DNA of 34,517 bases from a virus: the IMG/VR virus record IMGVR_UViG_3300034167_000106, positions 1 through 34,517 of that record. One strand, 5' to 3'. Position numbers and translations under genes: made by a program. Below the pieces are notes generated by a model. It was not told the origin of the DNA and ran no database searches. It saw only the letters and a list, made by a program, of their open reading frames with translations. The number at the start of each line of letters is the position of its first letter. The stretch's first letter is position 1. Of this stretch, positions 1,930 to 34,517 are shown one piece after another.

Positions 1930-2895
1930 ATGGCATTAGCTTTTAGCGGATTATCCGCATACACAAAACAACTTGTTAAACCACTACTTACTAGTGCTGT
2001 ATTTGACGCAAAAACACAACAGTTAATTCTTGCAAGCGGTATTGTTATACCAAACGTAAAAAGTTCTGTTGCAATTCCTTTGATGGAAACAGATGCGGTA
2101 TTTGCTGCACAGTCTTGTTCTTTTGACGCAAGCGGAACAACTACTTTTTCTCAACGTTCTATTACAGTTGGTAAAATTAAAGTAGAAGAAAAAATTTGCC
2201 CGAAAGATTTAGAGGCTTATTTTACCCAAGAAGCGCTCAAAGCAGGGTCTACATATGAGGATTTTGGTAATGCAGATTTCCAAAAAGCATTCTTAGATAA
2301 AAAGAATATCCGTATCGCTTCACAACTTGAAACTGCAATATGGCAGGGAGATTCAACGGGCGCTACGGCCAACCTTAACAAATTTGACGGATTACAAAAA
2401 TTAATTGCTGCTGGTTCACCAGTACTTGCAAACGTATCAGGTTACACAGGTGTAACAGGTTCTCCGATTGTAACCGTAAATGCTTCAAACATTATCGCTG
2501 CAACTGAAGGTATCTACAAAGCTATCCCTGTTCAAGTTTTGAGCAAAGGTGATGTAAAGATTTTTGTTGGTAACGATTGGTATCGTTTGTTGATTCTTGC
2601 TTACAGAGAAAAAAATATGTTCTCTTATAATCCACAAGATTCACAAGCTGCTTCATTTATCTTGCCTGCAACTAACGTTGAAGTAGTAAGTGTAAATGGT
2701 TTGAATGGAACTGGTGATGCTTATGCAATCAGTCTTTCTAATATGGCTATGGCGGTTGATTTGGTCGATGAGGAAGGGTCATACAAACTTTGGTATAGCG
2801 AGGACAACAACGATGTACGTTATCGTGTAGAATTTAAAATGGGAGTAAACGTTGCCTTTACTAACGAAGTAACTTCTTTCATCGCTGCAATTTAA
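1930..2895 (+). CDS. Major capsid protein
   Basis: A 321-residue protein follows protease and scaffold genes and is itself followed by a strong hairpin. The sequence has the character of Bacteroidota phage major capsid proteins: an N-terminal helical arm, a central region with paired acidic and basic segments (KIKVEEKICPKDLEAYF), a helix containing ASQLETAIWQGD, and a beta-rich C-terminal domain ending in VNVAFTNEVTSF. An HK97-like fold is presumed from context but cannot be shown by eye. Codons in this gene are more regular and C-richer in places than in neighbouring genes (AAC, ATC, CGT), as expected for a very highly expressed protein. Confidence 0.82.
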   Translation: MALAFSGLSAYTKQLVKPLLTSAVFDAKTQQLILASGIVIPNVKSSVAIPLMETDAVFAAQSCSFDASGTTTFSQRSITVGKIKVEEKICPKDLEAYFTQEALKAGSTYEDFGNADFQKAFLDKKNIRIASQLETAIWQGDSTGATANLNKFDGLQKLIAAGSPVLANVSGYTGVTGSPIVTVNASNIIAATEGIYKAIPVQVLSKGDVKIFVGNDWYRLLILAYREKNMFSYNPQDSQAASFILPATNVEVVSVNGLNGTGDAYAISLSNMAMAVDLVDEEGSYKLWYSEDNNDVRYRVEFKMGVNVAFTNEVTSFIAAI

Positions 2896-2904
2896 TTTTC
2901 TAAC

Positions 2905-2937
2905 ATAGGGAGGTGGTTCGCTATCTCCCTATTTAAT
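2905..2937 (+). terminator. Hairpin with UUCG loop after the capsid gene
   Basis: ATAGGGAG (2905-2912) pairs with CTCCCTAT (2925-2932). Four further inner pairs, two of them G-U, close on a TTCG tetraloop at 2917-2920. A T-rich stretch follows (2931-2948) but it is not a clean T tract. It may act as a partial terminator or as an mRNA-stabilising 3' structure that raises capsid transcript level relative to downstream genes. Confidence 0.75.
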
Positions 2938-2948
2938 ATTTATATTTT

Positions 2949-3467
2949 ATGGCTTGTGCAATCGTAAGCGGATATACAATAGACTGTCGGGAATCAGTTG
3001 GGGGAGTTGACGCAGTATTTTTCGCAGAATTTGGAAACGTAACAATAGCCGATGCTAGTGGTATTGTTACAGGAATTACAAAAGCAGCAGGAAAGAAATT
3101 CTTTAAGTTTGAAATACCTACTAAATCAAGTGCAGTTGCTGCAAGCAATCCTACTGGTTCTATTGAGAATGGTACTTTGTTTTTTGAACAAACTTTAGAT
3201 TTCCCTATTAATAAAAGAGATGCCACTACAAGGAATATCATAACTACTTTATCAAAGAATAAAATTGTTGCGGTTACACTTGATAAAGATGGCACTTACA
3301 GAATGTATGGTAAACAATTCGGAATGTATTTAGCTGCAAGCACAGGAACAAGTGGTGCTGCTGCTGCTGATGCACAGGGTTATATGCTGAAGTTTGAAGC
3401 AAGTGAAAGGGAAGATTTCTTTGAAGTTACAAACGCACTAGGTTTGCTTTTGACTACTGCTGGATAA
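2949..3467 (+). CDS. Major tail tube-like protein
   Basis: A 172-residue, beta-rich protein sits directly after the capsid gene and is bracketed by hairpins on both sides, which suggests it is produced at high level like the capsid. The start MACAIVSGYTIDCRESVGGV and the central FFKFEIP and GTLFFEQTLDFPI phrases resemble tube-like proteins of Bacteroidota siphoviruses as I remember them. The role would be to form the tail tube around the tape measure. An alternative is a second abundant head protein such as a decoration protein. The start is the first ATG after an AT-rich leader. Confidence 0.6.
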   Translation: MACAIVSGYTIDCRESVGGVDAVFFAEFGNVTIADASGIVTGITKAAGKKFFKFEIPTKSSAVAASNPTGSIENGTLFFEQTLDFPINKRDATTRNIITTLSKNKIVAVTLDKDGTYRMYGKQFGMYLAASTGTSGAAAADAQGYMLKFEASEREDFFEVTNALGLLLTTAG

Positions 3468-3521: not shown

Positions 3522-3890
3522 ATGATAAATTTAACGAAAGGACTTACCGAAACAATTTATTTCACAGGTACAGAAAAGGCTACTATTGCAAACCCTTTTT
3601 TTTTATTTGTGTTTATCCACAGGGTTACACTTGATGTTGTTAAGTTAATGGCAACGAATCAAAGTATTACTGGTAGATATGATAAATTTGCATTTACGGT
3701 TAACAACTTTTTTGATTTAAAGGAGGAGGGATTTTATAGTTATAAAATTTATCAAAAGGTATTGGTTACTGATTTTACAGTAGCAGGGATAGTGGTTGAA
3801 GAGGGGTTTATGTATCTTAATCCATCAACTGCATTTGAACCAACTAAATACGAAGAACAAAACAATAATTTCGTTACTTATGAATTATAA
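3522..3890 (+). CDS. Virion-region protein of unknown function
   Basis: A 122-residue protein lies between the tube-like and portal genes, and its last 11 bases overlap the portal start. It contains alternating beta-strand phrases (ETIYFTGTEKAT, FFLFVFIHRV, GFYSYKIYQKV) and ends in an acidic tail. I recognise no motif. The location and all-beta look suggest a minor head or connector component, but this is inference. Its start lies almost immediately after a terminator, so its expression is probably lower than that of the two genes upstream. Confidence 0.7.
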   Translation: MINLTKGLTETIYFTGTEKATIANPFFLFVFIHRVTLDVVKLMATNQSITGRYDKFAFTVNNFFDLKEEGFYSYKIYQKVLVTDFTVAGIVVEEGFMYLNPSTAFEPTKYEEQNNNFVTYEL

Positions 3891-6692: not shown

Positions 6693-7124
6693 ATGACTTA
6701 CAACCAATTAATAACAACAATAACAAGCCTATTGCAAAGCCATGCAATGATAGAGACGGCAAAGCACACAACCCCAAAAGAATGGTTGCTAAGGGATGAG
6801 CAGCCAATTTATCCAATAGCTTGCTTTTCTGTTAATTCGGGAACTATGAATATAGGCAGGGAGCAAGTGTTTTCTGTTCAATTTTTCTTTTTAGACAAAA
6901 GCGGAAAGGAAGCAGAATTTGAAAACGATGTTATAAGCGACCAAATACAAACTGCATCAGATATATTAAGCCTAATGAGAACAGGCAGGAATAGTTATTC
7001 AATAGATGATAACGTTTCGTTTAATGCAATATCGGATAAATACGAGGATTATTTAGCGGGTATAGAATACACAATTAACATTTCAACTCAAAACGAATTT
7101 ACAGGATGCAACGTGCCATTATAA
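6693..7124 (+). CDS. Tail terminator / tail completion-like protein
   Basis: A 143-residue alpha/beta protein follows the connector-like gene. It starts with a helix (TYNQLITTITSLLQSHAM) and continues with strands such as IYPIACFSVNSGTM and FSVQFFFLDKSG, then a helix with IQTASDILSLM. This pattern fits the small tail terminator or completion proteins that cap the tail tube. The call rests on size, secondary-structure look and position. Its end overlaps the fibre gene by 19 bases, so translation of the two is probably coupled. Confidence 0.5.
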   Translation: MTYNQLITTITSLLQSHAMIETAKHTTPKEWLLRDEQPIYPIACFSVNSGTMNIGREQVFSVQFFFLDKSGKEAEFENDVISDQIQTASDILSLMRTGRNSYSIDDNVSFNAISDKYEDYLAGIEYTINISTQNEFTGCNVPL

Positions 7125-10100
7125 TAATTTTATTATTTTTATCTTTTGGATTAAAAGCACAGGTTTACCAAGCTATGCCACAGGCTGGATATGGTCCTGT
7201 AAAAAGATTTTTAACAGATAGTGTTTTGACTATTCCAACTGGTATAAATTCTTTAAGAAATATAACTGGTGGAAGGGATGCAGGACAAATAAGATGGAAT
7301 ACAACTGATAGTAGTTTGTATATGTATAGTGGTTCACAATGGATTAAAATAAATACAGATACAAGTTCGTTAAATAATAAGATTAATGGTAAATTAAATA
7401 TAAGTGATACGGCTGCCATGCTTGCCACTTATTTAAATGCAAGTGATACTATCAGCCTTTCAAATAGAATAAATTTAAGGGTTAAATATTCAGATACTGC
7501 ATCGATGCTTTTACCATATTTACGAAAGTTAGATACTGCAAGTTTATCAGATAGGATTAATAAAAAAATGGATAGTTTAATATTAACTACCATTGGCACA
7601 GGTGGATTGGCAACGTTGCTAGGAACTACTTTAAATATTCCAAATTATAGCGGCGCATTAACTGGATATGTGCCATATTCAGGTGCAACAAATAACGTTA
7701 CATTAGGAAGTTATAATTTAACAGGAACTTTATTAAATGCAGATTATGCTTTACAGGTAAAAAATGGTGTTGGTGCTTATGGTAATTCTACTGTAAATTA
7801 TACTGCAATTACTTCAGATAATGGAAGTTTTAATTTTTTTACCAATTGGATGTCAGGACCAACATTATTTCAAAAGGGTGTGGCTTTCGTATATCCTACA
7901 AGCGGTACAACTTTTCAATATTTATTACCTATCCGAAATGGCACTTTAGCATTGGTAGAAGATACGGTAAGTTTATCAAATAGAATCAATGCGAAATTAG
8001 CAATAACGGACACAGTTTCTTTGTCAAATAGAATTAACCTAAAAGCAGATAAGTCCACTACCTTAACCATTAACGGGACTGGTTATGATTTAAGCGCAAA
8101 CAGAAGTTGGACTATCCCTACTACAGACACTACCAGCCTTTCTGATAGGATCAATACAGAGGCATCAAGGGCAACAACTGCGGAAGGATTAAAGCTGAAC
8201 ATATCAGACACAGCCGCTATGCTTAGTGCATACTACAAGGCTTCTAATCCAGCAGGATATATCACTGCTGCTGCTATTGCAGGGAAATTAAATATAAGTG
8301 ATACGGCTTCAATGCTATCTAATTACCAAAGTGCTATAAATGCTCGTGTTAAATATACCGATACTGCGGCAATGTTAGACCCCTATTTAACCGCTGCGGT
8401 AACAAGTGTAGGGTTATCAATGCCAGTTGCTTTTAATGTCAGCAATAGCCCTGTAACAAGCACAGGAACGATTGCAGTAACAGGAGCAGGAACGGCAGCA
8501 CAATATATTCGTGGTGATGGTCAATTGGCTACTTTGCCATCAGGTGCAAGCGGTGGAAGTTCGGTTGATTATTATTTAAATGGGGGAACAAGTCAGGGAA
8601 CTATTGGCGGAAGTACTTATTACGAAATGAGTAAAATTCCAGTTATAGGAACTGGCGCAGATTTTAATAGAACTAACGCACAAGGCAACGGATTAATTGC
8701 ACAATTTATTACTGATGTTGCAGACCCAAACAGGACAGAAATACCAGCAGGGGCATGGAATTTTGAAATGTTTTTTAGTGCTTCTTCAAATGGCGGTACA
8801 CCTTCATATTATATAGAATTATTAAAGTACGATGGTACTAATTTTACTTCGATTGCTAGTAGTTCGGCAGTACCTGAATTAATTACAAGCGGAACTATTA
8901 TTGATTTATATTTAACTTCTTTAGCAGTTCCATTTACTGCATTATCTATAACGGATAGATTAGTGGTAAGAGTTTATGTTACTACTTCAGGTAAGACAAT
9001 TACACTACATACTCAAAACGGACATCTTTGTTTGATTACAACAAGTTTTGCAGGTGGTGTAACATCGTTAAATGGGTTGGCTGCAAATACTCAATATTTG
9101 GCAGTTGATACGGTAGGAAGTGATTTTAATATTAACAGTTTAGTTGATACACATACTTTTAATTTACCGACTGCAAGCGCAACAAAACGAGGTGCTTTAA
9201 AGTCTGCGGATTGGTCAACCTTTAATGGTAAAATGAATTATTCAGATACTGTAAGTTTATCAAACCGAATTAATTTAAAATTAAATAGTGCAGATACGGC
9301 AAGTTTATCAAACAGAATTAATACAAAAGCAGACGCATTAAGCGGAACAACTAACACAATACCTAAATTCACTTCAGGAACTACAATAGGAAATAGTAAT
9401 ATAAAAGATGATGGAAATATAGTAAGTGTTAATGCAACGGCTGGAACTTTTGGTGCTTTGCAAGTTGGTAATTATAATGGTAATATTTTAATGAATACTA
9501 ACAATACAAGTGCAGGTTTAATATTTCAAAATACATCAGCATCCAATAAAAAATGGGATTTTTCTTCTTATAATAATGACCTATCTTTTAACGAATCAAA
9601 TGTTAATCCTGTAATGACTTTGCAAGCAGGGGGCAATGTGGGAATAAATGTAACTAACCCATCTAATAAATTAGAAGTGAATGGAACTTTTAAGTCGGTA
9701 GGTATTGCGACATTTGGCAGCACATTATCAAACGGAACTTATGCCTATACATTGCCATCTGGCACAGGTACATTAGCGCTTTCAAGTGCTTTTGATACTA
9801 CTTCATTAAGCAACCGAATAAATACAAAATTAAACATTAGTGATACTGCTTCTATGCTTAGCGGATACCAAAGCGCAATTAATTCTAAGCAACCACAATT
9901 AAATGGTACTGGTTTTGTAAAAGCATCAGGCACTACAATTAGTTATGATAATAATACCTATGCAACTACATCAGCATTAAGTGGATATTTACCATTGAGT
10001 GGAGGCACTTTAACAGGTGCTTTGGGTGCGACTAGTGCTACGTTTGTAAGTTCAAATGCAGCTGGAACATTAGGAGTTTATGCAAGTACATCAGGGAGGG

Positions 10101-17972: not shown

Positions 17973-18203
17973 ATGATAAGCATAAATTCAAATATATTCG
18001 ATTTTAAAATAAATAATTCAGCTAAACTTTTTTATGTTTATCTTCAGCATACAAAAGCACTAGAAAAATCAAATGCCCATTATGCAGATTGCTTTGAAGT
18101 ATCTACAATGACAATTACCAACTGGCTAAATGAACTTCAGGATAAAGGAATTATAGAAATAATTTTTGATAAAAACAAACGTAAAATAAAAATTAATGAA
18201 TAA
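17973..18203 (+). CDS. Small winged-helix protein in the replication cluster
   Basis: A 76-residue protein with helix-turn-helix character: KLFYVYLQHTKALEKS is followed by CFEVSTMTITNWLNELQDKG and then a wing-like strand pair (IIEIIFDKNKRKIKI). This is the pattern of the winged helix found at the N-terminus of phage replisome organisers, where the helix SxxTITNWLxxL is the recognition helix. It overlaps the next replication gene by 8 bases. It could load at the origin or act as a regulator; sequence alone does not separate these. Confidence 0.7.
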   Translation: MISINSNIFDFKINNSAKLFYVYLQHTKALEKSNAHYADCFEVSTMTITNWLNELQDKGIIEIIFDKNKRKIKINE

Positions 18204-18630
18204 ATCTTATTACTTTAGCCATGATTACGCAGCAAGTAATGATGTAAAGATTCTATTTTTGCGGCAACAATTAGGGATGGAAGGTTATGGCATCTATTGG
18301 TTTTTAGTTGAAAACTTGGCACAGGCTGGGGGCATTCTACCCATGAACATTACCCCAGTTCTGGCAATGCAGATGCAGACAAATGAGGTAAAAGTAAAGG
18401 CAGTAATTGAAGAATTTAATTTGTTTACAATTGCTGAAAATGGTTTCTTTTCTAAAAGATTAACCGAACATTTAGAGATGAGAAAAAAACTAAGTGATAA
18501 GGGTAAAATTGGTGCTGCTTTACGTTGGAAAAATGGGGGGGCTATTGGGGATGCCATTGGGGATGGCAATGCAAAGAAAGAAAGTAAAGAAATAAATAAT
18601 AGGGATTTTTTAACAAAAATTGTTCTTTAA
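18196..18630 (+). CDS. Lin1244/Lin1753-type (DUF4373-like) replication protein
   Basis: The 144 residues start MNKSYYFSHDYAASNDVKIL, matching the Lin1244/Lin1753 N-terminal domain of phage replication initiator-like proteins: SxDxxxxxDxKIxxLxxxxGxxGYGIYWxLxE. After residue 110 the chain becomes basic with KGKIGAALRWKNG, then GDAIGDGNAKKESK, a typical linker. Many relatives continue into a further domain, whereas this one stops after a short tail, so it may be a naturally short form. A run of seven G at 18535-18541 and the repeat ATTGGGGATG lie in the linker. The role is probably helicase loading for DnaB encoded downstream. Confidence 0.78.
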   Translation: MNKSYYFSHDYAASNDVKILFLRQQLGMEGYGIYWFLVENLAQAGGILPMNITPVLAMQMQTNEVKVKAVIEEFNLFTIAENGFFSKRLTEHLEMRKKLSDKGKIGAALRWKNGGAIGDAIGDGNAKKESKEINNRDFLTKIVL

Positions 18631-26341: not shown

Positions 26342-26558
26342 GAAAGAAACAAATCTAGTATTTGATAAGCATAGGCACTTTTATGATTTCTACCATAAGA
26401 CAGGGGAAATAGTAAACTTTAACCATGATATCCAAAAAGAGTTATTAGATGAATACCGAAGGGTAAAAGATGCGTACTATCATTATAATACTAATTGTAC
26501 TATATGTGTTATTGACTTCCTTAATTTAATTTACCGATGGTATGACATTCAAGCATAG
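26316..26558 (+). CDS. Conserved small protein with Cys pair (80 aa)
   Basis: I take the ATG at 26316 (overlap 26 bases) rather than 26262, which lies deep inside the glycosyltransferase gene. The 80-residue product has DKHRHFYDFYHKTGEIVNFNH and a C-terminal YNTNCTICVIDFLNLIYRWYD segment with a CxxC pair. I recall similar short proteins in other Bacteroidota phages, commonly close to the terminase. It overlaps the next gene by 17 bases. No function is known. Confidence 0.6.
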   Translation: MPTKALLVKKETNLVFDKHRHFYDFYHKTGEIVNFNHDIQKELLDEYRRVKDAYYHYNTNCTICVIDFLNLIYRWYDIQA

Positions 26559-27204
26559 TGGAGTAACTGGGGATATTATATTTAGCTTACCAACAATAAG
26601 AAAGATGGGGGGCGGTACTTTGTATATTACACCTTATAATCTGCAAAGGGCTGAAAGCATAGCACCATTAATTAAAATACAGGATTATATTACCGATGTT
26701 ATTATAAGCGATAACCTGCCACATATTGATGTTGATTTAGATAAGTTTAGGGTATATGCAGGGCGTGAATCAAATTTGATTGAGGCGCATTTAAAGGCAC
26801 AAGGATTGTCAGATAATAGTTGGAAAGATGGATGGCTAAGGATTGAAGATAATAAGCCTATAATAGATTATACTTATTCGGTAATTAATACAGGAAGCAA
26901 TTACCTAGACCCTAACTTTGATTGGAGCAAAGAAATTAAATATTTACTAACTTTAAGCGAAAGGGTTTTTTATTTAGGTTATAGAGGTGAATTTGATTTA
27001 TTAAATAATAATGAAGCAGAATTTTTTGAATGTGATTTTGTAACTGCTGCTGAAATGATTTATTATGCTCAAATGTTTACAGGTGGATATTCTGCCTTAT
27101 CAACGATAGCAATGGGATTAGGTATTAATTATAGGATGGTTCAAGCACCTAATCATACTTGCAGCAGCTTATTAATGGAACGAGAAAAAATAGTTAATTT
27201 ATGA
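26542..27204 (+). CDS. Glycosyltransferase family 9-like protein
   Basis: A 220-residue protein with the N-terminal signature KHSGVTGDIIFSLPTIRKMGGG, reminiscent of ADP-heptose:LPS heptosyltransferases (GT9), whose GDxxxxxPxxxxL motif binds the acceptor. Later regions include SVINTGSNYLDPNFDWSKEI and the terminal YYAQMFTGGYSALSTIAMGLG, matching the GT9 donor-site pattern with a Gly-rich loop. It is shorter than the 300-residue bacterial enzymes. Together with the GT4-like gene 200 bp upstream it forms a small glycosylation cassette. The stop overlaps the TerS start by 4 bases. Confidence 0.7.
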   Translation: MTFKHSGVTGDIIFSLPTIRKMGGGTLYITPYNLQRAESIAPLIKIQDYITDVIISDNLPHIDVDLDKFRVYAGRESNLIEAHLKAQGLSDNSWKDGWLRIEDNKPIIDYTYSVINTGSNYLDPNFDWSKEIKYLLTLSERVFYLGYRGEFDLLNNNEAEFFECDFVTAAEMIYYAQMFTGGYSALSTIAMGLGINYRMVQAPNHTCSSLLMEREKIVNL

Positions 27205-27584
27205 GTTTAGAGAAACAACCACATGGAGGATTTTTAAATAGATACGAGAAAGGGGCAGCATGGAAAGGTAACCGTAATGGCAGACCTAGAAAGTACATAA
27301 CTGAATTAGCCCCACACGGTTACAAGAATGCTCAAGTAATGGATTGCATTCAGGTATTAATGGCAATGACTACAAAAGAACTACAAGAGATTTTAAAAAA
27401 TGAAGATAGCACAGTACTTGAAAGAACCTTAGCCAATGCACTATTAAAATCATTAAGTAAAGGTTCTTTATATTCAGTAGATACTTTATTGAGCAGGGTA
27501 TATGGTAAGCCAAAAGAAACAACGGCAGTAATACAAGACTCAAAGATTGAAGTAGTATTTGTAAAGGGTAAAACTATTTTATGA
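27201..27584 (+). CDS. terS: Terminase small subunit-like protein
   Basis: A 127-residue basic protein directly before TerL, with a 4-base overlap on each side. The N-terminus has an AWKGNRNGRPRKY motif, common in small terminase-like and DUF5681-type phage proteins, followed by a helical core (KNAQVMDCIQVLMAMTTKELQEIL; LERTLANALLKSLSKG) and a short strand end (KIEVVFVKGKTIL). Small terminases bind the packaging site and activate TerL. Position and basic N-terminus support this; no crystal-type HTH is obvious. Confidence 0.75.
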   Translation: MSLEKQPHGGFLNRYEKGAAWKGNRNGRPRKYITELAPHGYKNAQVMDCIQVLMAMTTKELQEILKNEDSTVLERTLANALLKSLSKGSLYSVDTLLSRVYGKPKETTAVIQDSKIEVVFVKGKTIL

Positions 27585-28735
27585 TTTTAGAACTACCTGA
27601 AGCGCATAAAAATCAAACTAAGATACTTGAATCAAATGCAAGGTTTCGGGTGGTGATGTGCGGTAGAAGGTTTGGTAAATCTGAATTAAGTCAGGTAGAA
27701 ATAATAAGCAATGCAATACAAGGAATGAATGTTGCTTACATCACCCCAACTTATAAACTAGCAAAAACATTTTTTGAGAAACTTACGCAATGCGTGCCAT
27801 TTGAAAACAACAAAAGCGATTTAACAATTCATTTTCCCAATATGGGAACAGTTGAATTTTTTACAGGAGAAAGACTAGATAACCTAAGAGGTAGAAAATT
27901 TCATTTAGTAGTAATAGACGAAGCAAGTTTTATACCTAACCTTGAAGATGGCTGGTTAAATTCAATCAGGCCAACGTTAACCGATTATCAAGGTAGAGCA
28001 TTATTCCTATCTACTCCTAGAGGTAAAAACTATTTTTATTCGTTATACATGAAGGGCGGTCAAAGAGATTGGGAAAGTTTTAAATTTACAACTTATGACA
28101 ATCCTTATATTTTAACATCCGAGATTAACGATGCAAAAGCACAGTTGCCATCAGTTGTATTTGAGCAAGAATACATGGCTAACCCTATGGAAAATGCAGC
28201 CAATCCATTTGGTAGTGAACACATTGCAAAGTGTACCTGTAATTTAAGTTACAATGAACCTATGTACTTTGGTATTGATTTGGCTAAGTCTGTGGATTGG
28301 ACTGTTATAATAGGACTAGATAGCGATGGTAAAGTAAGTTACTATGAACGTTTCCAAAAGGATTGGTTACAAACAAAAGAAACAATTAGACAGATAAGAA
28401 AGCATAAACATATATTTATTGATTCTACTGGAGTAGGTGATGCAATTGTAGAGGACTTACAAAAGCACTTCAACGATATGACAGGGTTTAAATACACATC
28501 AACAAGTAAACAGCAGTTAATGGAAAGCCTTGCATCATCAATTCATAAAGCCGAGATAGGATTCCCCGAAGGAGCAATTAAAGACGAATTAGAAATATTT
28601 GAATACTTATTTACGTCAACTGGTGTAAGATATTCTGCACCATCAGGCTTTCACGATGACTGTGTTAATGCGCTTGCCTTAGCTAATAAATGCCGTATAG
28701 AAAACAAAGGAAGCGGTCAATATCATTTCATTTAA
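27581..28735 (+). CDS. terL: Terminase large subunit
   Basis: A 384-residue TerL with the packaging ATPase and headful or site-cutting nuclease. ATPase motifs: Walker A VVMCGRRFGKS (residues 24-34), Walker B HLVVIDEA with Asp113-Glu114, and coupling motif LFLSTPRG (141-148). RNase H-like nuclease residues: Asp233 in FGIDLAKS, Asp281 in IFIDSTGVG, and Asp359-Asp360 in GFHDDCVNA. It is on the short side of the family but complete. It powers DNA translocation through the portal encoded about 10.7 kb further along the circle. Confidence 0.95.
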   Translation: MILELPEAHKNQTKILESNARFRVVMCGRRFGKSELSQVEIISNAIQGMNVAYITPTYKLAKTFFEKLTQCVPFENNKSDLTIHFPNMGTVEFFTGERLDNLRGRKFHLVVIDEASFIPNLEDGWLNSIRPTLTDYQGRALFLSTPRGKNYFYSLYMKGGQRDWESFKFTTYDNPYILTSEINDAKAQLPSVVFEQEYMANPMENAANPFGSEHIAKCTCNLSYNEPMYFGIDLAKSVDWTVIIGLDSDGKVSYYERFQKDWLQTKETIRQIRKHKHIFIDSTGVGDAIVEDLQKHFNDMTGFKYTSTSKQQLMESLASSIHKAEIGFPEGAIKDELEIFEYLFTSTGVRYSAPSGFHDDCVNALALANKCRIENKGSGQYHFI

Positions 28736-28766: not shown

Positions 28767-29408
28767 ATGACAATTAAGCAATTTCAAGAGTTGTACTATG
28801 TGGCTACTTCCGAAGATATGGACTTTGATAAGTCTATTAAGATGGTGGGGATAGTAACTAAAAAGACACCCGAGCAAGTAGAGGCAATGTCAATGATTAG
28901 GTTTAATTTACTTTGTGGCAGGGTGCATAATGAATTTAGGATATTCGAGAAAGACTTAATGAAGGGAAAGCCTAGAAAAATAGTAAGAGTAGGAAAGCGA
29001 TTCTATAAAATTAATTACGATGTAGCAAAATGTAAAGCATCAACCTATGTTGAAGTGGCAACTTTTAGCACGGATATAATTCAGAACCTGCACAAAATAA
29101 TGGCTTCAATAGTAACACCAGTTAGATTTAAATGGGGTAAGTGGGTTGAGCATGAAGAACTTGCAACGGATTTAGAAAAGATGGATTTTGAGGTGGCTTA
29201 CCATGCAGCGGTTTTTTTTTACACTTTATTCAACGTATCAATGCAAGTTATCCAGCCCTATTTGGTAGCAGAGATGACAAAGAAAGGGATAGCGAAGGAG
29301 AAAGCGACGGAGATATTGACGATTTCACAAAACATTTTGGATGGCTTTACAATGCCAAGATGGTCGCAGACTTCGAAAGAATATCTATTGAATCGGTTTG
29401 GAATTTAA
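28767..29408 (+). CDS. Tail-assembly-chaperone-like protein, zero-frame product
   Basis: A 213-residue helical protein following TerL. The core includes TPEQVEAMSMIRFNLL, RVHNEFRIFEKDL and ATDLEKMDFEVAYHAAVFFYTLFNV. In the zero frame, translation passes a run of nine T (29212-29220), and the last 45 codons (from about 29276) use G-ending codons (GCG, ACG, GAG, TCG, CGG) that are rare elsewhere here. The -1 frame over the same DNA has normal codon use and continues to 29491, overlapping the next gene. This is the arrangement of lambda G/GT-type tail assembly chaperones, with short and frameshifted long forms. The distance from the tape measure is unusual for such a pair. Confidence 0.7.
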   Translation: MTIKQFQELYYVATSEDMDFDKSIKMVGIVTKKTPEQVEAMSMIRFNLLCGRVHNEFRIFEKDLMKGKPRKIVRVGKRFYKINYDVAKCKASTYVEVATFSTDIIQNLHKIMASIVTPVRFKWGKWVEHEELATDLEKMDFEVAYHAAVFFYTLFNVSMQVIQPYLVAEMTKKGIAKEKATEILTISQNILDGFTMPRWSQTSKEYLLNRFGI

Positions 29409-29491
29409 AAGTAATTAATTTTTTAAATGATTTGCTTTATTTAAAATTAAAACAGGATAAGGATAATGAGTATATCAAAAAGTCAGCTTGA
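29192..29491 (+). CDS. -1 frame extension of the upstream gene (probable programmed frameshift)
   Basis: The frame one base behind the zero frame is open from 29192, just after a TGA at 29189-29191, to a TGA at 29489-29491. It has no good early start codon, so it would be read by slipping from the zero frame, most simply at the T9 run. Its encoded sequence includes DKERDSEGESDGDIDDFTKH, an acidic linker, and then FGWLYNAKMVADFE and VINFLNDLLYLKLK, a compact helical domain with the normal codon use of this phage. It fills the otherwise empty gap after 29408 and overlaps the next start at 29466 by 26 bases, as adjacent genes here usually do. Confidence 0.68.
   Translation, partial: GGLPCSGFFLHFIQRINASYPALFGSRDDKERDSEGESDGDIDDFTKHFGWLYNAKMVADFERISIESVWNLKVINFLNDLLYLKLKQDKDNEYIKKSA
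29212..29220 (+). other. T9 homopolymer, candidate -1 slippery site
   Basis: Nine consecutive T occur in the codon context GTT TTT TTT TAC. It lies within the window (29192-29408) where the zero and -1 frames are both open and allows the T-TTT-TTT type of tandem slip. No clear downstream pseudoknot was identified by eye. Transcriptional slippage is an alternative mechanism at such a run. Confidence 0.6.
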
Positions 29492-30098
29492 TAATTTTGC
29501 TAAAATAGGTAAGTCGGATTACACTATTGATGATGCTTATGTGCCTGATTTAAATAATACAACATTGGCTTTTTTTGAACAATATGCTAAAACATTTTTT
29601 GAAGAAATACAAAAAGAATTAAAAGATAAAAAAGTAAAAAGGGCAAGCGGTGATTTAGCAGATAATACAAAAGTAGTTGCAAATGAGGATGGAAGCGGTA
29701 TAAAGATATCAATGATTAACTACTATGATTTTGTAAATAAAGGAGTTAAGGGTGTAAGAAGTTCAACAAATGCACCAAGTAGTCCATATAAATACAAGAC
29801 TTATGGAATGCCTTTAAGTGCTAGGATTGGGATTAAAAAATATATTGAAAGCGGTAAAGCAAGCATAAGAGAAGAAACATCTAAAAAAACAATAATAGCA
29901 GCGCAAAAAAAGACTGTTTCAATTGATTTACAAGTTCAAACAATGGTTTATCTAATTAAGAAATGGGGTATAAAAACAACTAACTTTTTTGATAACGCAA
30001 CGGAAAGAGTAACCAAAGATTTAAGTGAAGATTTAATGTATCTAATTGGAAAAACTATAATAGTAAAAATTGGGCAACCTAAAAAGAAAAGTAAATGA
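29466..30098 (+). CDS. HK97 gp10-like tail completion / head-tail joining protein
   Basis: A 210-residue protein. Residues 35-125 contain an FFEEIQKELKDKK helix, a strand (GIKISMINYYDFVNKGVKG) and SPYKYKTYGMPLS, the layout of HK97-gp10-like proteins in Bacteroidota phages, where the YxxFVxxGVKG phrase is recurrent. The C-terminus is a helix followed by a basic tail KIGQPKKKSK. Such proteins finish the head-tail interface or the tail tube end. It overlaps the next gene by 4 bases. Confidence 0.7.
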   Translation: MSISKSQLDNFAKIGKSDYTIDDAYVPDLNNTTLAFFEQYAKTFFEEIQKELKDKKVKRASGDLADNTKVVANEDGSGIKISMINYYDFVNKGVKGVRSSTNAPSSPYKYKTYGMPLSARIGIKKYIESGKASIREETSKKTIIAAQKKTVSIDLQVQTMVYLIKKWGIKTTNFFDNATERVTKDLSEDLMYLIGKTIIVKIGQPKKKSK

Positions 30099-33271: not shown

Positions 33272-34517
33272 ATGGCAAAACAAGTATTAGCATTTGAAAT
33301 AACAACGGATTCAAAACAAGCAGAAGCATCGGTAGGTACTTTTAAAAAACAATTAAGAGAGGCTAACAATGAATTGCTAAATATGGCTTCGCAGTTTGGT
33401 GAAACATCAAAGGAGGCTATTAATGCAGCTAAGAAAGTAGCAGGATTAAAGGATGCCATCGGTGATGCAAAAGCACTAGCAGAAACATTTAACCCCGATA
33501 AAAAGTTTGTTGCTTTGGGTGGTGCTTTACAAGGTGCAGTAGCTGGATTTAGTGCCTTACAAGGTGCTATGGGTTTATTTGGTGCAGAGGGTAAGGATGT
33601 GGAAAAAATGATGCTAAAGGTACAAAGTGCAATGGCTTTGCAGCAGGGAATTAGCGGTATCGCTGGGGCAATGGATTCATTTAAGTTATTAGGTAATGAG
33701 ATTAAGGGGAATGTGACAAAAGCATTTAGCACATTAAAGGGAGCGATAGCAGCAACAGGAATAGGGTTATTAGTTATTGGGGTTGGTTTACTTGTAGCAA
33801 ACTTTGAGAAAGTTAAACAAGTAATGCTTAATTTAATTCCTGGACTTGAAAAGGTTACGGATTTCTTTGGTAAAATGATTGATGCAGTTACTGATTTTGT
33901 TGGTGTAACAAGTGAAGCGGACAGGGCATTAGAATCGCTTAATAATAAAACCAATGAAAGGAATAAAACAATAGACCAACAATTAAAGGTACTTGGTGCA
34001 ATGGGTAATCAAGAGGGGGCAATGCACAAACTAAAGCAAGAACGTGCAGCTTCTGAAGTTGAAATGTTATTGCAAAAAACAAACAGAACACAAGAAGAAA
34101 ATGATAAAATAATAGCTTTAAATACTGAAAGAACAGTTAATGAAATTGAGAATAATAACAGAATACAAAAGAATAGGGAAGATTTAGCAAAGAAAAATGA
34201 AGAAACAAGATTAAAAGAAGAAGAAAAATTAAAAAAACAAAAAGAACTAGCAGATAAATTAAGGTTAGCTACTTTTATTGCAAAACAAAAAGAACAAGAT
34301 TCAGATATTGAATTTGGTTTAAAATTACAAGAAGAACAAGATGCGATTGATAAAAAAGAAGTAGAAAGAAAAGCTGGAATTAAAAAAAGTCAAGAAGAAA
34401 TAAATGCTCATTTTTTTCAACTTAGATTAAAAAACCTTCAAGATGTTCAGGCGAATGCAGATAAAGAAAAAGAAATTGATAGGGCGAAATTAGCTGCAAA
34501 AATGGAATTTATAGATG
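33272..34517 (+). CDS. Tape measure protein, N-terminal part (continues at 1-585)
   Basis: The ATG at 33272 opens a frame with no stop to the window end; it continues at base 1 through the terminal overlap and stops at 585, giving about 567 residues. The N-terminus (AKQVLAFEITTDSKQAEASV, then TFKKQLREANNELL) resembles the start of many siphovirus tape measures. A hydrophobic segment (about residues 155-173, AATGIGLLVIGVGLLVANF) is followed by a long charged coiled coil (about 225-390, rich in Gln, Glu, Lys). A rough 1.5 angstrom per residue rule would suggest a tail of about 85 nm. The antisense frame here (33244-33954) is a shadow. Confidence 0.88.
   Translation, partial: MAKQVLAFEITTDSKQAEASVGTFKKQLREANNELLNMASQFGETSKEAINAAKKVAGLKDAIGDAKALAETFNPDKKFVALGGALQGAVAGFSALQGAMGLFGAEGKDVEKMMLKVQSAMALQQGISGIAGAMDSFKLLGNEIKGNVTKAFSTLKGAIAATGIGLLVIGVGLLVANFEKVKQVMLNLIPGLEKVTDFFGKMIDAVTDFVGVTSEADRALESLNNKTNERNKTIDQQLKVLGAMGNQEGAMHKLKQERAASEVEMLLQKTNRTQEENDKIIALNTERTVNEIENNNRIQKNREDLAKKNEETRLKEEEKLKKQKELADKLRLATFIAKQKEQDSDIEFGLKLQEEQDAIDKKEVERKAGIKKSQEEINAHFFQLRLKNLQDVQANADKEKEIDRAKLAAKMEFID
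34391..34517. repeat. Terminal direct repeat, right copy
   Basis: These 127 bases are identical to 1-127 and mark circular closure. Removing one copy gives a 34,390-bp genome with an intact tape-measure gene. Confidence 0.97.

Follow-up and report, generated by a model that had tools for sequence, protein, structure and literature searches.

The gene that directly follows the large terminase subunit gene (terL) of this virus raises the question of whether it encodes one protein or two, the second reached by a -1 shift of reading frame on a run of nine T residues (T9), and if so, what kind of gene it is. The window, that is, the whole stretch of 34,517 nucleotides analyzed here, carries a 127-bp direct repeat at its ends (1-127 and 34391-34517), across which a tape measure gene continues. 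Therefore, we take the record as a complete phage genome, circular or circularly permuted, in effect whole at ca. 34.4 kb.

Two reading frames downstream of the terminase gene

The zero frame (28767..29408; this gene, its parts, and the terL, next, and tape measure genes are all on the + strand) encodes a protein of 213 amino acids with homologues, the short form of a candidate tail assembly chaperone. It ends at 29408, leaving a gap of 57 bp before the next ATG at 29466, while the -1 frame is open from 29192 to 29491 and reaches 26 nt into the next gene before its own stop. A sequence-only reading of the window had described this arrangement and had proposed the T9 at 29212..29220 as a slip site, and each of these points was confirmed. 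The register of the run in the gene is GTT TTT TTT T.., which places in frame a -1 heptamer of the classical X_XXY_YYZ type, T_TTT_TTT (29213..29219). The part common to both forms comprises residues 1 to 151 (28767..29219), and the -1 extension adds 90 codons plus a stop (29219..29491), giving a long form of 241 amino acids. Between 29222 and 29405, ca. 62 codons (ca. 185 nt) appear to be doubly coding, as judged from codon usage and from silent sites, which are suppressed in each frame. As far as sequence conservation can show, the locus specifies two products with a common N-terminal part, the longer one by way of a conserved frameshift.

Read across the record ends, the gene order is a small-terminase candidate (27201), terL (27581..28735; matches to phrog_2, Terminase_6N, and 6C), the chaperone-candidate gene, genes for proteins of 210 (29466..30098, with a weak hint of a tail-completion or neck function), 382, and 676 amino acids, and the tape measure gene (33272..34517, the rest at 1-585 across the end repeat). 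A protease (616), a probable capsid gene (1930), a structural gene (2949), and the portal (3796) follow, the assignments of 1930 and 2949 being weak. The tape measure was identified through the syntenic protein of a relative (L016), which matched phrog_24676, tail length tape measure, at 2.1e-10. The earlier reading had stressed that the gene lies next to the terminase rather than next to the tape measure. It does adjoin terL, but this concerns the arrangement of the genes only: three co-directional genes of the same module lie between it and the tape measure, the fourth gene downstream, and the chaperone candidate sits among the tail genes. Gene order differs among phages, so adjacency to the tape measure is usual for chaperones of the G/GT type but does not define them.

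Two further features of the genome were recorded. The gene before the small-terminase candidate encodes 220 amino acids here (26542-27204), while in L016 a methyltransferase-like gene of 176 amino acids stands at 7100-7630; this slot looks like a cargo exchange site whose content differs between close relatives. Elsewhere, a run of seven G residues (18535-18541, inside the ORF 18196-18630) in a genome of 32% G+C is possibly a phase-variable or slippery site.

Conservation of the slip run and of both frames

We collected 80 loci by TerL, 80 by the zero-frame protein, and 80 by the -1 domain; the sets overlap, and dropping identical contexts left 98 plus 31, i.e., 129 distinct loci. The T9 was exact in all of the first 98 and in 29 of the further 31 (127/129), although these counts are not independent, since the loci are related. 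The two exceptions were a T8 (L219) and a T10 at a contig edge (L196), and T_TTT_TTT was kept in all loci, T8 variant included. A pattern search returned 24 contigs, partly overlapping the 129 loci, and all 24 had the T9. All 89 aligned loci had TTT for both Phe codons of the run, the overall share of TTT being 72%. The first and ninth T can be explained by the residues encoded in one frame or the other. At the last T of the second TTT, a C would keep both proteins and a ribosomal slip site, yet T was found there in all 89 aligned loci, as well as in all 24 contigs of the pattern search, which left this position free.

Wherever the ends were visible, the -1 frame stayed open for 88 to 95 codons after the slip, compared with 48 to 85 for the zero frame, while the third frame was closed within 1 to 28 codons (first 98 loci). 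The T9 is the exact border in the relatives, where the common N-terminal part stops and the -1 domain starts. Across 64 representative relatives, the -1 product was 37 to 93% identical, with the signature FGW.YNAK.VSEFE.IS..EVW.L....FLNDL.YLK.K. The acidic linker and compact domain recognized earlier in this frame are thus found again, with FGW.YNAK.VSEFE and FLNDL.YLK.K conserved in relatives. Judged from the sequences, the conservation of the -1 product together with the invariance of the T9 is far beyond chance. No relative with a closed or unconserved -1 frame was seen among those examined, all of which had it open and conserved. In one subclade (L213 and L227, at about 2504-3282), the zero frame is open for 85 codons past the slip, so that almost all of the -1 domain is open in two frames. 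Searches of 50,697 phage records with the joined protein (tblastn) gave no match, and a scan of GTDB genomes with the -1 domain gave no relative.

Codon usage, scored as the mean log-odds per codon in each frame, changed along the gene. Before the slip, the zero frame scored +0.06 and the -1 frame -0.85; in the overlap (29222-29404), the values were -0.00 (zero), +0.11 (-1), and -0.65 (third frame); past the zero-frame stop, they were -1.31 (zero) and +0.22 (-1). According to these scores, both frames are coding-like in the overlap and only the -1 frame is so after the zero-frame stop. The earlier estimate of ca. 200 bases with coding character in both frames can be made more precise, the overlap being ca. 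185 nt here and 48 to 85 codons in relatives. In addition, the zero frame encodes a predicted helix where the -1 frame encodes the variable acidic linker.

It could nevertheless be that only one frame, either -1 or zero, matters past the slip, the other being an accident of base composition. An open zero frame is weak evidence by itself, given that codon shuffling with the -1 protein kept left it open as long in ca. 17% of trials per sequence; for that reason, we relied on silent sites, whose conservation in both frames had been suggested as a check. In the 17 sequences of the window clade, the per-site differences for the first, second, and third codon positions were 0.09, 0.07, and 0.33 before the overlap and 0.09, 0.03, and 0.24 after it, while within the overlap, in -1 frame positions, they were 0.16, 0.08, and 0.11. 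The silent sites of this clade changed at 0.44 (95% interval, 0.22 to 0.89) of the single-coding rate in the -1 frame and at 0.49 (0.33 to 0.67) in the zero frame, with intervals obtained by column resampling that ignores the tree. The ratios were 0.77 (-1 frame) and 0.71 (zero frame) among 64 distant relatives, with intervals below 1, and among 8 relatives of middle distance the ratio was clearly below 1 for the zero frame only. Silent changes in both frames are thus rarer in the overlap than in the single-coding stretches of this gene, in the window clade and in the distant relatives. Along similar lines, pN/pS was <1 for either frame in each of the three groups, and the zero-frame stop was held at 48 to 65 codons in nearly all loci. 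Together, the open zero frame and the silent-site suppression argue for a doubly coding overlap and leave the one-frame alternative very unlikely.

Two other readings keep both frames but dispense with slippage during expression. The -1 ORF might be a distinct small gene with an internal start, unfused to the N-terminal part; the window has an in-frame ATG at 29360, and GenBank has the corresponding extension of a cultured phage, P12024S, as its own ORF 39. However, conservation of the -1 frame begins at the slip, well ahead of this ATG, which falls in the middle of the conserved domain and is replaced by Leu in some relatives. A separate gene would also leave the invariance of the slip run without a reason, and joined chains are found among the models of BFVD, where A0A6J7WJY4 and A0A516L611 (243 and 258 amino acids) match the zero form as well as the -1 domain, which suggests that the joined protein exists as a single deposited ORF. 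We regard this reading as even less probable than the previous one. The same uninterrupted full-length relatives, along with the single T10 contig, could instead point to phase variation at the DNA level or an assembly error, with a T10 as the true or alternative allele giving one long gene. Against this, the run is exactly nine in nearly every locus, from many metagenomes and also in the GenBank genome of P12024S, and the zero-frame C terminus is under selection, unlike a dead allele; this is the least credible of the alternatives and can hardly be the explanation. A programmed -1 frameshift, as postulated by the sequence-only reading, is supported by the conservation of both frames and the invariant slip run.

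Family identity and comparison with known tail genes

Within 23 whole phage records, Phage_TAC_7 (PF10109; P2 gpE, Mu gp41) had one match each in 9, always in this gene and near residues 7 to 60, positions that were converted from contig ranges. The best match had an E value of 1.1e-6 and 24 bits against a curated cutoff of 25. The phrog_166 family ("tail protein") likewise had one match each in 11 of 18 records, in the same stretch of the gene. The window's own protein had no Pfam match, and none of the matches of its relatives reached the curated cutoff. For the -1 domain, comparisons with Pfam, PHROG, and the PDB gave nothing convincing, and it belongs to no annotated family. The two parts were modeled separately with AlphaFold2: the short form is predicted to be mainly helical, with a single long helix that runs over the slip position (mean pLDDT, 84.6), and the model of the -1 domain is only moderate (69.5). 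A fold search of the PDB with the short form gave nothing, and among viral models it had 29 matches at an E value of <0.001, none of them informatively named; the two joined chains of BFVD are among them. The protein R9VW65 of Flavobacterium phage 6H was set aside, with a weak fold match (E value, 0.02) and no obvious shifted extension.

The cultured Nonlabens (Persicivirga) phage P12024S (JQ823122) has a counterpart, gene 38 (L153, 23136-23830), directly 3' of terL. Its N-terminal domain is like that of the window by profile and by fold, being the best of 35 proteins against the N-domain profile (E value, 9.4e-5; next, 0.04), and it has a T9 in the same register with the -1 frame open for 81 codons past the slip. 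On the other hand, its zero frame ends ca. 25 codons after the slip, compared to ca. 62 in the window, and its extension has diverged so far that no significant alignment was obtained. GenBank lists genes 38 and 39 as two hypothetical genes, but they probably form a single gene that is frameshifted at a T9, and the annotation could be corrected. Mainly on the basis of this phage, the lineage probably belongs to the phages of Bacteroidota, a placement that concerns the lineage and not the host of the window phage.

In order to put the locus into perspective, we compared it with known frameshifted genes, reading the overlap lengths from their sequences. P2 gpE/gpE+E' has weak sequence similarity to the window gene and is likewise a tail gene with a T-rich -1 slip site (TTTTTTG), although its zero frame stops 6 codons past the slip and E' leads straight into the tape measure gene. 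Lambda gpG/gpGT also has a short and a -1 extended form with a common N-terminal part and the tape measure downstream; however, no sequence similarity to gpG was found, the slip site is GGGAAAG, the overlap is 5 codons, and the gene lies between those of the tail tube and the tape measure. HK97 gp13/gp14 has two such forms in the tail module but no sequence similarity, an overlap of ca. 5 codons, and another slip site. We found no paper describing a gene like that of the window in the open-access literature, which does not prove that there is none.

Given the conservation of both frames, the invariant run, the Phage_TAC_7 and phrog_166 matches close to the cutoff, and the tape measure downstream, the likeness to G/GT-type chaperones noted in the earlier reading is supported. 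The lack of a Pfam match at the cutoff, of an annotated family for the -1 domain, and of an RNA stimulator speaks against a frameshifted chaperone gene, as does the position of the gene, not directly before the tape measure. On balance, we conclude that the gene very probably encodes two siphophage tail assembly chaperone forms of the lambda G/GT (P2 E/E+E') kind, the long one reached by a -1 slip on the T9, in a phage lineage that is new.

How the long form may be made

Under the chaperone reading, normal decoding would give the 213-amino-acid short form, while a fraction of decoding events would slip by -1 on the T9 (T_TTT_TTT) to give the 241-amino-acid long form, in which the 151 common residues are followed by the acidic linker and a different C-terminal domain. 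In lambda, the short form is on the tape measure and the long form recruits the tail tube (PMC5009743). By analogy, the common part may bind the tape measure protein and the -1 domain may recruit the tail-tube protein, with the ratio of the two forms set by the efficiency of the slip.

Stem-loops, pseudoknots, and upstream Shine-Dalgarno (SD) sequences are common but not obligatory stimulators of -1 frameshifting. At the slip site, folding by simple base pairing, without pseudoknots, showed no RNA structure 3' of the run beyond that of shuffled sequences, there were no consensus pairs, and an SD-like GAGGTGG upstream of the T9 was dismissed because it varies in relatives and encodes residues. 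This bare T9 makes slippage of RNA polymerase a live alternative, in which U10 transcripts would be translated normally into the long form. Thermus dnaX and Shigella mxiE, examples of transcriptional slippage that encode different proteins, likewise have nine A or T residues in a row where the frames meet, and in many bacteria, selection against slippage is seen at run length nine (PMC1088944). The constancy of exactly nine T residues, including the one replaceable by C without protein change, points the same way, and elsewhere in the genes of these phages, A runs of at least nine are rarer than expected (4 seen versus ca. 28 expected). This depletion can, however, also reflect replication slippage, and in-register T7 is depleted as well (31 seen versus 47.5 expected), as ribosomal slipping predicts, so run depletion speaks for both mechanisms. 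The intact in-register heptamer in every locus, even in the T8 variant, also argues against the polymerase. A second coding T9 of the window (3596-3604, in a 122-amino-acid gene at 3522-3890) is not used, with no long shifted frame following it, which likewise counts against the polymerase, and is missing from both homologues found; its presence indicates that T9 is not forbidden in coding sequence. Overall, we place a slip by the ribosome, which we consider somewhat probable, modestly ahead of RNA polymerase slippage, which is plausible to the extent of roughly one case in three. Accordingly tentative is the idea that this phage lineage sets its chaperone ratio by RNA polymerase slippage at the T9, with two C-terminal domains drawn from the same 50 to 85 codons.

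Whichever the mechanism, two features, as read from the nucleotide data, are new with respect to the known systems: the long dual-coded overlap (48 to 85 codons versus 5 to 6 in lambda, P2, and HK97) and the bare T9 without detectable RNA structure. The long overlap implies that selection maintains a separate C-terminal domain in the short form, in contrast to the short forms of lambda, P2, and HK97. These findings would add to the phages with a tail-chaperone frameshift a large lineage, mostly unannotated, whose long form is invisible to gene callers, and the bare, invariant T9 may serve as a natural system to tell ribosomal frameshifting from transcriptional slippage.
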